From: Natronomonas marina
GTDB taxonomy: Archaea; Halobacteriota; Halobacteria; Halobacteriales; Haloarculaceae
Direction of reading: 5' to 3'
Length of the DNA: 64,000 nucleotides
NCBI RefSeq assembly: GCF_024298905.1
Contig: NZ_CP101154.1
Coordinates: 3,622,932-3,686,931 of the forward strand
Position numbers and translations under genes: made by a program. Under the pieces are notes generated by a model, which ran no database searches, was not told where the DNA came from, and worked only from the letters and a program-made list of their open reading frames with translations. The stretch's first letter is position 1. Each line of letters opens with the position of its first letter. This document shows, in pieces, positions 11,063-15,991 of the stretch.

Positions 11063-11193
11063 GAACGCCGCTATGACAGCTACTGATAAACCACTCTCCT
11101 AAGGACAAAGAGCGGTTTGACCCTTGGTCGGCGAGAGTGCGGATTGCTGGCCCCCAACCGCTTATTACCCACAAGCGCGTCTTTTTGCGGGAG
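11063..11193. promoter_or_regulatory. divergent promoter region, beta-propeller gene and bat
   Basis: 131 nt between divergent genes. On the plus strand cttattac (11161-11168) is centred about 28 nt before the bat ATG at 11194. On the minus strand a tttatc element (about 11084-11091) serves the beta-propeller gene. I found no close match to a Bat upstream activating site here, so bat itself may not be Bat-regulated. Confidence 0.5.
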
Positions 11194-13230
11194 ATGAACG
11201 ACACTGGGGGACCGGCGGCTCGCGTGCTGTTCGTCACCGAACGGCCGGCCCGGTGGCGGGGGGCGCGAGCCGCGCTGGAAGCCCGCGACGGCCTCTCGGT
11301 AGCCGTCGCCGAGGGCGTTCCCGACGGGCGCATCGCTCCCGATGTCGACTGCGTGGTCGGAATCCACGACGACGCCACGGACGGACTGGCGTTGCTGGAG
11401 GCCGTCCGGGAGTTGCGGCCGTCGCTCCCGTTCGTTCTGCTTTCGGGAGTCGACGACGGCCGGGTCGCAAGCCGGGCCGTCTCGGCCGGCGTCTCGGAGT
11501 TCGTCCCGGCGTTGGACCCCGGCGCGGAGGACCTGCTGGTCGACCGCGTCGAGGGTGCCGTCGCCGAGCGGCGCCCCGCCCGCGACGGCGGCAGCGTCCC
11601 GATGCCCATCGACGACGTCGGCATCCGGGAGGAACTCCGGCTGAAGGAGCGCGCCATCGACGAGGCGCCGGTCGGCATCACCATCACCGACCCGGACCGC
11701 CCGGACAACCCGATGATATACATCAACGACGCCTTCGAGGAGCTGACGGGCTACGACAAGGCGGAGGCAGTGGGACGGAACTGCCGGTTCCTCCAGGGCG
11801 AGGACTCCGACGGGGAGGCCATCGACGCGATGCGAGAGGCGGTCGACGAGGGGGAGCCTGTCTCCGTCGAACTGCTGAACTACCGGCCGGACGGCGAGCC
11901 GTTCTGGAACAAGGTCGACATCGCGCCGGTCCACGGCCCCGACGGCGAGGTGACCAACTTCGTCGGCTTCCAGACGGACATCACCGACCGCAAGGAGGCC
12001 GAGATGGAGGCCAGGCGGCGCCGCGAGGAACTGGAGCACCTGCTCGTTCGCATCGACGGTCTCCTGCAGGACGTGACCCGGGAACTGGTACAGGCCGGCT
12101 CCCGCCCGGAGATAGAGCGCGCCGTCTGTGAGCGCGTCGCGGCCGACGACACCTACGAGTTCGGCTGGATCGGCGCGCCGGACTACGCCACCGAGACGAT
12201 CGTCGCCAGCGCACAGGCCGGCGAGTGGTCGCCCACCGAGGAAGCGCTCGCGGCCGACCTCTCGGACGAGGAGGGAGGGCCGACGGTGGCCGCCTACCGA
12301 ACCGGCGAAATCCAGGTCGTCGGGGGAAGCGAGGATCTCGCCGACCTCGCCGCGAGGACGCCGTGGCTCGATGCCGACGACCTCGGCGGAGTCGCCGCGA
12401 TTCCGCTGTCGTACGGCGAGACGACCTACGGCGTGTTGACGCTGTACACCACCGACGGGGCGGCGCTGAACGAACACGAGATGGTGGTCATGGCGGCGCT
12501 GGGGCGGGCGGCGGGGACGGCCATCAACGCCCTCGAGCGGGGCCGGATACTCGCCTCCGACAGCGTGACCGAACTCGTCCTCGAGACGACCGACAGCGAC
12601 CTCTTCTTCGTCGAGCTATCGAAGGAGACCGGCTCGTATCTCGAGTTCGACGGGTCGGTCCACCGCGACGACGGCTCCGTCCTGACGTTCTTCACGACCG
12701 ACGCCGACGCCGAGGCGGTCCGGGACGTCGCGGCCGGCTACCCCGACATCGAGTCGGCCAGCCCCATCCACGAGTTCGACGACGCCACGCTGTGGGAGTT
12801 CGGCCTCGCCAACGCCTCTATCACGGCGACGCTGGCCGAGCGCGGCGTGAAGATCAGTTCGATAACCGTCGCCGACGGCACCGCCGAGATCTCGGTAGAG
12901 CTCCCGAAGGAGAACGAGGTGCGGGCCATCGTCGAACTCGTCCGCGAGCGGTACCCCGACACGAAGATAGCCGCCCACCGCGAGCGCGAGCGGCCGCCAC
13001 AGACCCGGCGCGGCTTCGTCGCCGACCTCGAGGAGCGGCTCACCGAACGGCAGCTGACGGCGCTGCGGAAGGCCCACGTCAGCGGCTACTACGAGTGGAA
13101 CCGCTCGGTCACCGGCGAGGAACTGGCGACGTCGATGGGCATCGACCGCTCGACGTACCACCAGCACCTCCGGGCCGCCGAGCGGAAGCTGACGGAGGCG
13201 TTCTTCGAGCGGGCGGTCACCCACGGCTGA
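11194..13230 (+). CDS. bat: Bat-type bacterio-opsin activator with LOV, GAF and HTH_10 domains
   Basis: 678 residues. Domains in order: a degenerate response-regulator-like part (about 5-115), a PAS/LOV domain (about 150-270), GAF (about 295-445), the Bat-associated domain (about 455-610) and a C-terminal HTH_10 (about 620-672, TSMGIDRSTYHQHLRAAERK). The PAS core contains NCRFLQ with C197, plus N229, N239 and Q260. These are the photoactive cysteine and flavin contacts of LOV domains, at the same spacing (+32, +42, +63) as in plant phototropin LOV2. Bat activates bop and the retinal-synthesis genes in Halobacterium, and its position beside blh, crtY and bop supports the same role. The open frame begins at 11137, but the ATG at 11194 has a TATA element 27 nt upstream and starts directly with the receiver-like domain. 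It converges with blh, the two genes overlapping by 14 nt. Confidence 0.92.
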   Translation: MNDTGGPAARVLFVTERPARWRGARAALEARDGLSVAVAEGVPDGRIAPDVDCVVGIHDDATDGLALLEAVRELRPSLPFVLLSGVDDGRVASRAVSAGVSEFVPALDPGAEDLLVDRVEGAVAERRPARDGGSVPMPIDDVGIREELRLKERAIDEAPVGITITDPDRPDNPMIYINDAFEELTGYDKAEAVGRNCRFLQGEDSDGEAIDAMREAVDEGEPVSVELLNYRPDGEPFWNKVDIAPVHGPDGEVTNFVGFQTDITDRKEAEMEARRRREELEHLLVRIDGLLQDVTRELVQAGSRPEIERAVCERVAADDTYEFGWIGAPDYATETIVASAQAGEWSPTEEALAADLSDEEGGPTVAAYRTGEIQVVGGSEDLADLAARTPWLDADDLGGVAAIPLSYGETTYGVLTLYTTDGAALNEHEMVVMAALGRAAGTAINALERGRILASDSVTELVLETTDSDLFFVELSKETGSYLEFDGSVHRDDGSVLTFFTTDADAEAVRDVAAGYPDIESASPIHEFDDATLWEFGLANASITATLAERGVKISSITVADGTAEISVELPKENEVRAIVELVRERYPDTKIAAHRERERPPQTRRGFVADLEERLTERQLTALRKAHVSGYYEWNRSVTGEELATSMGIDRSTYHQHLRAAERKLTEAFFERAVTHG

Positions 13231-14245
13231 GGCCGGCCCAGACGCCCTCCCGGAGGTCCATCCACGTCACGACGGCGACGTGCGGCAGCGTCAGGACGGC
13301 GACGAATACGAGATACAGCGCCGCCAGTTCCGCCGGCGTCGAGGGCGTGGCCGGCACGAGGGCGCCGAACCCGACGAGGAGCACGAGCGACAGCGCGGTC
13401 AGCGGCGCGGCCTCGCGGGCGAACCGCCGGAGGCCCGCCCCGACGGTCGCCGTCTCGCCGTCGGCGGCCGCGACCCGCAGGACGTGCCGCAGCGAGTGCC
13501 AGACACAGAAGTAGACTCCGACCGCGACGAGCGGCGGTACGGCGAGGAAGAACGTCCACAGGAGTGCGGTCTCGCCGGCGTCGACCCGCCAGCCGCGGGT
13601 CGCGCCCGCCTGCCGGTAGCCGGCTGCGAGCGTCCCGACGGTGACCGCGAGGAAGGCCGCCCCGCCGACCAGCCGCGTTCCCGGCGCGAACAGCCACGTC
13701 ACGGCCAGGTCCGCGCCGAACAGTTCGACCCACGTCCCGACGACCGCCCGGTAGCGGCCCGGGAACGCGACGAGCGGGACGAACATCGGCAGGCCGCCCC
13801 GGACCACGAGCGTCGCGGCCCGTAGCGGCCGCGACCGGAGGTGCTCGGCGCCGACGAAGGCCACGAGGGCGTGGACATCGCCCTGCCCCCAGTGGAACCA
13901 CGTCACGGCGACGAACAGCAGCGCCGCGGGGACGGGCGCGGTCAGCCACAGCACCGCGTAGGCACCGCCGGCCAGCAGGTAGAGTGCCCCGACCAGCGCC
14001 ATGGACTCGGGCAGCGAGCGACCGCCCAGGCGGGCGGGAACGAGGTAGTCGACCGCGCCGTGGGGCAACCCCAGGACGACGACGCTGGCCGCGAGCGGCA
14101 GGTACCGGAGCGTCGGGCCGGGGGCGACGCCGGCCACCGCCGAGACGGCCGACAGGGCGACGACGACGCCACAGACCGCCCAGGCGGGGCGGGTGGCGAC
14201 CCGGTCGAAGGCCGCCCGCGCGTGGGCGGTTGCGGTCACCTCCAT
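13217..14245 (-). CDS. blh: Brp/Blh-type beta-carotene 15,15'-dioxygenase
   Basis: 342 residues, polytopic membrane protein. Family signatures are visible: LGLPHGAVDYLVP, WFHWGQGDVHAL, YFCVWHSLRHV and LPHVAVVTWMD. The histidines in these blocks fit the iron ligands proposed for Brp/Blh. The enzyme cleaves beta-carotene into two retinal molecules, the chromophore of the opsin at 15178. The start at 14245 overlaps the end of crtY by 10 nt; the open frame extends to 15043, but that extension lies over crtY in another frame and is not coding. The terminal 14 nt overlap the 3' end of bat on the opposite strand. Confidence 0.92.
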   Translation of the reverse strand: MEVTATAHARAAFDRVATRPAWAVCGVVVALSAVSAVAGVAPGPTLRYLPLAASVVVLGLPHGAVDYLVPARLGGRSLPESMALVGALYLLAGGAYAVLWLTAPVPAALLFVAVTWFHWGQGDVHALVAFVGAEHLRSRPLRAATLVVRGGLPMFVPLVAFPGRYRAVVGTWVELFGADLAVTWLFAPGTRLVGGAAFLAVTVGTLAAGYRQAGATRGWRVDAGETALLWTFFLAVPPLVAVGVYFCVWHSLRHVLRVAAADGETATVGAGLRRFAREAAPLTALSLVLLVGFGALVPATPSTPAELAALYLVFVAVLTLPHVAVVTWMDLREGVWAGLSRG

Positions 14246-15030
14246 CGGTCCATCACCCACCGGAACAGCACCAGTCCCTGGACGACGAACAGGTTCGTCA
14301 CCGCGAAGAACAGCGCCTCCTCTATCGGCAGTCCGAGGATGGCCAGTCCGGTCGTGTGTTCGGCGGAGATGTGCCAGATGCCGGTCGCGATGGCGATGCG
14401 GTCGACGACCCAGAGGTAGACGGTCGGGACGGCGACCCCGACCGCGAGCACGCGCCGCTGGTGGTACAGTTGCGGGGCACCGACGACCCACTGGAGGAGG
14501 AGGACGGGCGCGCTCCAGGCGAGGATGGCGCCGAGGTACAGCGTCGACGGCGTCGACAGCAGCGCTAGGCCGGCGACGCCGAGGCCGACGGCGACGGCGC
14601 CGGCGAGCAGTCGCGGGGCGACCGACAGCGCCTCCCGCCTGACGAGCGAGCCGAGGTCGCCGCCGCGCAACAGGCCCGGTTCGGGCCACCCCTCCCGGAG
14701 CGTCAACTGGCCGAGCCACAGTGCCGTCAACACCGGCTGTAACACGAAGAAGAGGTACTCGCCGAGCGGGGCCAGCCAGAGGTGCACGAGCGTGCGGCCG
14801 TCGCCGTAGCCCCAGACGCCCCGCGAGATGAGGTAGTTGTCCCACGGCGTCGTGTAAACCACCGCGAGCAGGGTGACGACGGCGACGCCGACCCAGTAAC
14901 TCGACCCGCCGACCGACCAGACGGTCCGGCGCGGCGTGCGGGTCCGGGTGACCACCGCCGCGGCCGCCAGCATCGACAGCGCCGGGACGAGGAAGGCGAC
15001 GTGGAACTGCAGGTACGAGGGGCCGCTCAC
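14236..15030 (-). CDS. crtY: lycopene beta-cyclase (archaeal CrtYcd type)
   Basis: 264 residues, about seven membrane helices made of two related lycopene-cyclase halves. Signatures are VYTTPWDNYLI near residue 63 (PWDN motif), EYLFFVLQPVL and PIEEALFFAVTNLFVVQG. It converts lycopene to beta-carotene, the substrate of Blh. Two consecutive GTG codons stand at 15033 and 15030. I choose 15030 because it overlaps the stop of the small ORF at 15027-15173 (GTGA), the coupling pattern seen elsewhere in this genome. It lies in an apparent operon bop - small ORF - crtY - blh. Confidence 0.92.
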   Translation of the reverse strand: MSGPSYLQFHVAFLVPALSMLAAAAVVTRTRTPRRTVWSVGGSSYWVGVAVVTLLAVVYTTPWDNYLISRGVWGYGDGRTLVHLWLAPLGEYLFFVLQPVLTALWLGQLTLREGWPEPGLLRGGDLGSLVRREALSVAPRLLAGAVAVGLGVAGLALLSTPSTLYLGAILAWSAPVLLLQWVVGAPQLYHQRRVLAVGVAVPTVYLWVVDRIAIATGIWHISAEHTTGLAILGLPIEEALFFAVTNLFVVQGLVLFRWVMDRWR

Positions 15031-15173
15031 CACGGTCGGTCACGGGTCGTCGGTCCGACCCGCGCCGGCGTCGCCGGCGCCCCGATGTGCGGTCCGCTGT
15101 CGCGGCTGTCGCTGTCGTCGCGGCTGTCGTCGCCCGATTCCGCCGCGCGTCCGGCGAGTGGTGTCGTCGTCAT
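15027..15173 (-). CDS. 48-residue acidic protein between bop and crtY
   Basis: ATG at 15173, four bases after the bop stop, and TGA at 15029-15027 overlapping the crtY GTG start (GTGA). The reading frame therefore fills the bop-crtY gap exactly. The product starts MTTTPLAGRAAESGDD and continues with a run rich in Asp, Ser and Arg (DSRDDSDSRDS), then a Pro/Ala/Gly tail ending DRPW. No hydrophobic segment and no recognised family. Small proteins near bop in Halobacterium (for example Brz and Brb) are known regulators, but I see no similarity to judge that. Its precise fit between two genes, rather than composition, is the evidence that it is translated. Confidence 0.6.
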   Translation of the reverse strand: MTTTPLAGRAAESGDDSRDDSDSRDSGPHIGAPATPARVGPTTRDRPW

Positions 15174-15177
15174 GGTG

Positions 15178-15936
15178 TCAGTCGGCGGGGCGTCCCGTGT
15201 CCGTCGCCCGGTCGGTCGCCGCCGCCGCGTCGTCGAGCGCCTCGTCGCTCGACAGGAGGACGTACCCGAACCCGAGTTTCGCGGTCAGATCGAGGACCAC
15301 GAAGCCGGCCGTCTCGACGACGGGGCCGGTCGCGCCGAGGCCGCCGGTGCCGGCCAGCCACCAGACGGGATAGCAGAGCCAGGTGACCGCCACGAGGTTC
15401 CGGAGGGTCCGGAACGTCGACCGCAGTGCCGCCGACAGCGGGGCGGCCCGCGCCGTGAGCGGCCCGAACAGGTAGTACAGAAGCGAGAGCAGAACGCCCG
15501 TCGAGACGGCCCACCAGACCAGCGGTTCCCCGGCGGGCGCGTAGACGCCGGTGGCCGTCGATAGCGTCGCCAGCACGCCCGTGACCACCATCAGGCCATC
15601 GAGGCCGACGAGGACGGCGAGTTGGCGTCGCGTCGCGCCGGCCAGCAGGCCGAGGCCGACGAACAGAAGCGGCGTCGTGAACATCCAGTCTGTGTAGCGC
15701 GCCCAGTACACCTGGGTCGGGCGGCCGCCGAGTTCGACGGCGGTGACCCCGAACCCGACCGCCATCGCGAGGTAGTTCACGAACGCGGTGGCGGTGGCGA
15801 AGACGACGACGACGTAGAACTCCCGGCGCCGACGGTCCTCGACGCCGCGGCCGTCCGAAAGGAAGTACAGGGTGCCCACCAGCATGCCGACCGCCCCGAG
15901 CCACAGGCACACCTGCTCGGCTCCAGGGGTCGGCAT
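15178..15936 (-). CDS. bop: bacteriorhodopsin-like microbial rhodopsin lacking Asp96
   Basis: 252 residues, seven helices. The retinal Schiff-base lysine is K220 (VLDLTAKLGFG), with the counterions D83 (WARYTDWMFTTPLL; D85 in bacteriorhodopsin) and D216 (D212). R80, W84, T87, D113, W186, Y189, P190 and E208 (E204) are also conserved. The cytoplasmic proton donor D96 is replaced by G94, and E194 of the release group by G198. The sensory-rhodopsin threonine before the lysine is absent (Ala as in bacteriorhodopsin), and no transducer gene is adjacent. It is therefore most like a light-driven proton pump, but with a missing donor that should slow reprotonation; a signalling role cannot be excluded. 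First gene of the operon that also makes its retinal. Confidence 0.93.
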   Translation of the reverse strand: MPTPGAEQVCLWLGAVGMLVGTLYFLSDGRGVEDRRRREFYVVVVFATATAFVNYLAMAVGFGVTAVELGGRPTQVYWARYTDWMFTTPLLFVGLGLLAGATRRQLAVLVGLDGLMVVTGVLATLSTATGVYAPAGEPLVWWAVSTGVLLSLLYYLFGPLTARAAPLSAALRSTFRTLRNLVAVTWLCYPVWWLAGTGGLGATGPVVETAGFVVLDLTAKLGFGYVLLSSDEALDDAAAATDRATDTGRPAD

Positions 15937-15963: not shown

Positions 15964-15991
15964 CAATGAATCGCTTACCAAACTGGTTGGG
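15964..15991 (-). promoter_or_regulatory. bop promoter: TATA-like element and Bat-type upstream activating site
   Basis: ACCaaactggTTgGG on the plus strand at 15977-15991 matches 11 of 13 defined positions of the Halobacterium Bat UAS as I remember it (ACCcnactagTTnGG). It lies 41-55 nt upstream of the bop ATG, close to the published position of the UAS in Halobacterium (about -52 to -39). A weak TATA-like attcattg (complement of 15964-15971) is centred near -31. The site is in the opposite orientation to bop but is nearly symmetric (CCAA...TTGG). Confidence 0.6.

Follow-up and report, generated by a model that had tools for sequence, protein, structure and literature searches.

Overlap coupling of neighbouring genes is already known in haloarchaea. 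In Haloferax, nearly all of the overlapping gene pairs that were tested proved strictly coupled (PMC6728339), a Shine-Dalgarno motif helps the coupling and is not essential for it, and genes have to overlap or lie very close together to be coupled, the effect falling steeply with distance and being gone at about 22 nt (PMC10666635). Short ORFs that serve only to deliver ribosomes to a downstream gene have been described as well (reviewed in PMC12548453). Moreover, small basic proteins are encoded near bop or bat in other haloarchaea, one of which, Brb, affects bop transcription, and in Halorhabdus utahensis a small ORF lies between bat and crtY (PMC3184054).

We analysed a 64,000-nt stretch of Natronomonas marina DNA (the window). 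On its minus strand bop, encoding a bacteriorhodopsin-like opsin of the light-driven proton pump type (15178..15936; PF01036, E 7.9e-55), is followed by a mini-ORF, by crtY, which stands at the beginning of retinal synthesis and encodes a lycopene cyclase with a CarR domain (14236..15030; TIGR03462, E 3.6e-40; its score against the Pfam lycopene cyclase model is slightly below the cut-off), and by brp/blh, of the beta-carotene 15,15'-dioxygenase family (13217..14245; TIGR03753, PF15461). The bat gene, with PAS, GAF, BAT and HTH_10 domains, lies on the plus strand (11137-13230) and is convergent to bop-crtY-brp. The mini-ORF (15027..15173, minus strand) is a frame of 48 codons running from an ATG (15173-15171) to a TGA (15029-15027), with the predicted product MTTTPLAGRAAESGDDSRDDSDSRDSGPHIGAPATPARVGPTTRDRPW. 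The first-pass annotation had described it as starting four bases after the bop stop and ending on the crtY start, and on both points it was right: between the bop stop (15180-15178) and the ATG there are only the four nucleotides CACC, and at the other end the choice between two in-frame GTGs for crtY, at 15033 and 15030, was settled by alignment with relatives (M-[ST]-G-P-[ST]-Y) in favour of the second (15030-15028), so that stop and start share the GTGA at 15027..15030, a classic 4-nt overlap. By eye, a Shine-Dalgarno motif is not evident before the mini-ORF or before crtY in the window. Upstream of bop, an inverted-repeat box was read from the sequence at 15977..15990 on the minus strand (ACCAAACTGGTTGG on the plus strand); it resembles the Bat upstream activator site, which we presume to be its function, and no copy of it was seen in the bop-crtY gap. 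The PAS domain of Bat in the window holds GRNCRFLQG, the motif of LOV blue-light domains, and its best NCBIfam match, below cut-off, is the YtvA blue-light family; judged from these features, this Bat may be a blue-light sensor.

Taken by itself, the ORF is only mildly unusual. When the 147-nt gap was shuffled preserving dinucleotides, an ATG ORF of at least 48 codons ending at the overlap arose in 1.2% of shuffles and one of at least 15 codons in 24%, so that the window alone proves little and it is the relatives that have to carry the argument. For this we compared 79 distinct bop-crtY junctions drawn from the family, the class and a genome collection; loci collected later served only to check both families for further members of the clade described below, and none was found. 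All ten junctions with a CrtY at least 67% identical, a set defined after the result had been seen, hold an ATG ORF of 19-48 codons that ends in an NTGA overlap at the crtY start, and the CrtYs of these mini-ORF bearers form one clade (support 99/95). The mini-ORF has 48 codons in the window, 31 in G133, 30 in each of G127 and G124, 21 in G117 and G053, 20 in Natronomonas gomsonensis (L008/L063), Natronomonas sp. CBA1123 (L009/L065) and Halohasta salina (L034/L061), and 19 in G123. Loss of the frame in close relatives, named by the first-pass annotation as the outcome that would speak against it, was looked for and did not occur. The other two frames hold such an ORF in 1/10 and 0/10 members of the clade; G123 has a second ATG ORF, of 23 codons, in the crtY frame. 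Among the 47 distant junctions, namely those with an overlap and a gap of at least 45 nt, five hold such an ATG ORF of at least 15 codons where shuffling expects 4.7, that is, distant junctions behave as shuffles do. L012, the sister sequence, lacks an ATG ORF and instead has a GTG ORF of 26 codons directly after the bop stop, and at the single Halorhabdus locus that was read as a second case (L194) there is no ATG ORF overlapping crtY. The Halohasta salina CrtY (L061), 68% identical to that of the window, sits inside an otherwise Haloarculaceae clade, with bop upstream of crtY and no brp found directly downstream, and its placement suggests that the bop-crtY unit was transferred between families.

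Conservation of the frame is not accompanied by conservation of the peptide. Over three close pairs, pooled by hand from pairwise comparisons with small numbers, nonsynonymous changes in the mini-ORFs amount to 15.5 in 167 sites and synonymous ones to 5.5 in 64 (pN/pS about 1.1); in the genes flanking them in these pairs the corresponding counts are 36 in 2153 and 95 in 817 (ratio 0.14). In the mini-ORFs the three codon positions differ little in GC content (0.69/0.70/0.74), in contrast with crtY and bop, in which it is 0.43-0.55 at the second position and 0.83-0.97 at the third. The isoelectric point runs from 4.9 to 12 across the clade: several peptides are rich in arginine with a pI above 10 and the relatives of the window peptide span 6.0 to 12, the window peptide itself having a pI of 4.9 and a net charge of -2. 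Its Asp/Ser/Arg-rich centre is a short tandem repeat with periods of 9 and 12. The window peptide had no Pfam or NCBIfam match, no match by tblastn against plasmids, and in 20 genomes of the genus all of its matches were of low complexity. The mini-ORFs in the subclade of the window (48, 31, 30 and 30 codons) share the same start, ATGACGACGACAC, and the same end, CCGTGGTGA, and vary in the interior, with length changes of whole codons; because the automatic alignment leaves these starts unpaired, they were compared from the ATG instead. The pattern in this subclade is, on sequence comparison, that of an ORF maintained for its start and its stop and not for its product.

We hypothesise that the mini-ORF acts independently of its sequence, its translation and not its product being what matters, and that it delivers ribosomes to crtY, a reading that we consider rather probable. 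A frame kept in ten of ten junctions while the peptide sequence is free is what a ribosome-delivering short ORF would be expected to show, small as these numbers are. Ribosomes translating the mini-ORF would stop at the TGA within the GTGA and restart on the overlapping crtY GTG, and the NTGA overlap characteristic of termination-reinitiation pairs is present at the crtY start in all ten members. In the window species, ribosomes leaving bop would restart at the mini-ORF ATG 4 nt further on, the mini-ORF would carry them over a 147-nt gap that could not otherwise be crossed, and the crtY-brp overlap would pass them on to the retinal-forming dioxygenase. Of the two candidate starts of brp, the ATG at 14245 and the GTG at 14239, it is the GTG that gives a GTGA overlap with the crtY stop; both starts (ATG at -10 and GTG at -4; 14236-14245 in the window) are kept across the clade and the overlap is available in every member in which brp follows. 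Translation of the mini-ORF, reinitiation and the feed of ribosomes from bop are all steps that we infer.

The best surviving alternative is that the gap is a neutral spacer, in which a chance or inherited frame has stayed open in GC-rich DNA with few stops and crtY initiates by itself. The codon-position GC and pN/pS of the mini-ORFs look non-coding, as this would predict, the distant junctions match the shuffles exactly, and the chance of an ATG ORF of at least 15 codons in a single sequence is 5-24%. However, the ATG ORF in the overlap frame is retained throughout the clade, and the window subclade keeps both ends of it while the interior changes. Common descent means that the ten members are not independent, and we therefore simulated an ancestral ORF evolving neutrally, without indels, in five lineages: an ATG ORF of at least 15 codons was retained in all five with a frequency of 0.036 at a branch length of 0.2, 0.008-0.013 at 0.3, about 0.001 at 0.5 and 0.0001 or less at 0.8. 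The fourfold-site distances of crtY between deep lineages are 0.31-0.52, and a rough saturation correction suggests real branch lengths of about 0.25-0.5. Retention by neglect is thus unlikely, for a clade that was picked post hoc, and we hold the neutral spacer to be a possible but doubtful explanation.

If the mini-ORF does deliver ribosomes, it can be asked where these come from. The spacings in the window, +4 from bop to the mini-ORF and -4 from the mini-ORF to crtY, fit the chain of restarts put forward above, and four of the ten members (the window, L003, L004 and, by a GTG, L159) have a frame that opens no more than 10 nt from the bop stop and runs through to crtY, where 0.6 are expected. 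An ATG close to the bop stop is confined to the window (+4) and two relatives (+7 nt). In the seven other members, at 25-79 nt from bop, the mini-ORF ATG is out of reach of a restart from bop, so that the mini-ORF would need its own initiation and be linked to crtY only. Coupling from bop itself would accordingly fit few members, the window species and two relatives by their ATGs. A bolder proposal, which we regard as unlikely, is a regulatory valve, in which translation of crtY and brp is tied to ribosomes leaving bop and retinal supply is set in proportion to opsin synthesis, adding a translational level to the control by Bat. The earlier suggestion that the ORF might merely couple crtY to bop holds up at the crtY end, where the search of relatives for the same overlaps recovered the NTGA throughout the clade, and fails for most members at the bop end, where such a short distance to an ATG is shared only by the two relatives.

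It is quite improbable, in our estimate, that an RNA or DNA element conserved in the gap (a hairpin, or a site of processing or of partial termination separating bop from the retinal genes) is what has been kept, with the ORF as a by-product. In both L008 and L009 bop is followed by a hairpin that differs between the two by one compensatory change (GGGGCC/GGCCCC against GGAGCC/GGCTCC; z -2.5 and -2.7), and the ORF of the window folds with a z of -2.6; against this, L010 has a z of 0, the mini-ORFs of L003 and L004 have 1.3 and 0.2, folding around the crtY start gave no common structure, and there was no Rfam match. A hairpin shared clade-wide was accordingly rejected, and so was a crtY start hidden in RNA structure, which was inconsistent across members. 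The hairpin of L008 and L009 lies downstream of the bop stop and upstream of the mini-ORF ATG, and may mark a 3' end, a processing site or a point of partial termination. As for promoters, an informal look by eye found no TATA-like box in the gap of the window, nor, across the clade, at the position where one would be expected ahead of the mini-ORF ATGs. The gaps of L037, L038, L039, L041 and L042 hold a motif near TTCCCGYTCGTGATA with a TATA-like stretch about 20 nt on, about 60 nt before crtY, an arrangement resembling an internal promoter for crtY in an outgroup without the ATG mini-ORF.

The least credible account, and the one the first-pass annotation had raised, is a small regulatory protein, Brb-like or other, acting in trans on opsin or retinal synthesis: the Brb precedent and the Arg-rich peptides of several members speak for it, but the three close pairs show no purifying selection, there is no coding periodicity, charge and length (19-48 codons) are unconserved and no family was matched, so that we find this very hard to believe.

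The preferred reading, delivery of ribosomes to crtY, bears on a simple need, since opsin and retinal must be made together and the bop and retinal genes are here 147 nt apart. This is farther than the reach of restarting reported for Haloferax (PMC10666635), and a bridging ORF without a useful product would, if the reading is true, solve the problem in a simple and natural way and be a native example from the archaea of ribosome delivery by a short ORF. The case is likewise a caution against naming ORFs of this sort as regulatory proteins, and where a small ORF in a bop/bat region has been mutated by a stop codon, the effect should not be read purely as loss of a protein.

Compared with the Brb-type proteins (PMC3184054), the locus is alike in having a small ORF in a bop/bat neighbourhood, some of those ORFs also overlapping the next gene, and differs in that the window peptide is acidic where Brb-like products are small and basic, is unconserved and is not beside a Brz-type zinc-finger gene, a pattern scan for paired CxxC motifs having found none in a plausible short frame near bop in the window. 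With the NTGA-overlap reinitiation described in Haloferax volcanii and E. coli (PMC6728339, PMC10666635) it shares a 4-nt overlap in a haloarchaeon and, in the window species, a bop stop near the mini-ORF start; the known pairs are two protein genes, whereas the coupling proposed here would have as its upstream partner an ORF of 48 codons whose product is not conserved. There is also a likeness to the ribosome-delivering short ORFs reviewed in PMC12548453: in both, a short ORF lies directly over a downstream start and its product is apparently irrelevant, although the examples seen there are bacterial or engineered and ours lies in an archaeal operon between two full genes. The mini-ORF of the window is likely, with moderate confidence, a further case of this kind.
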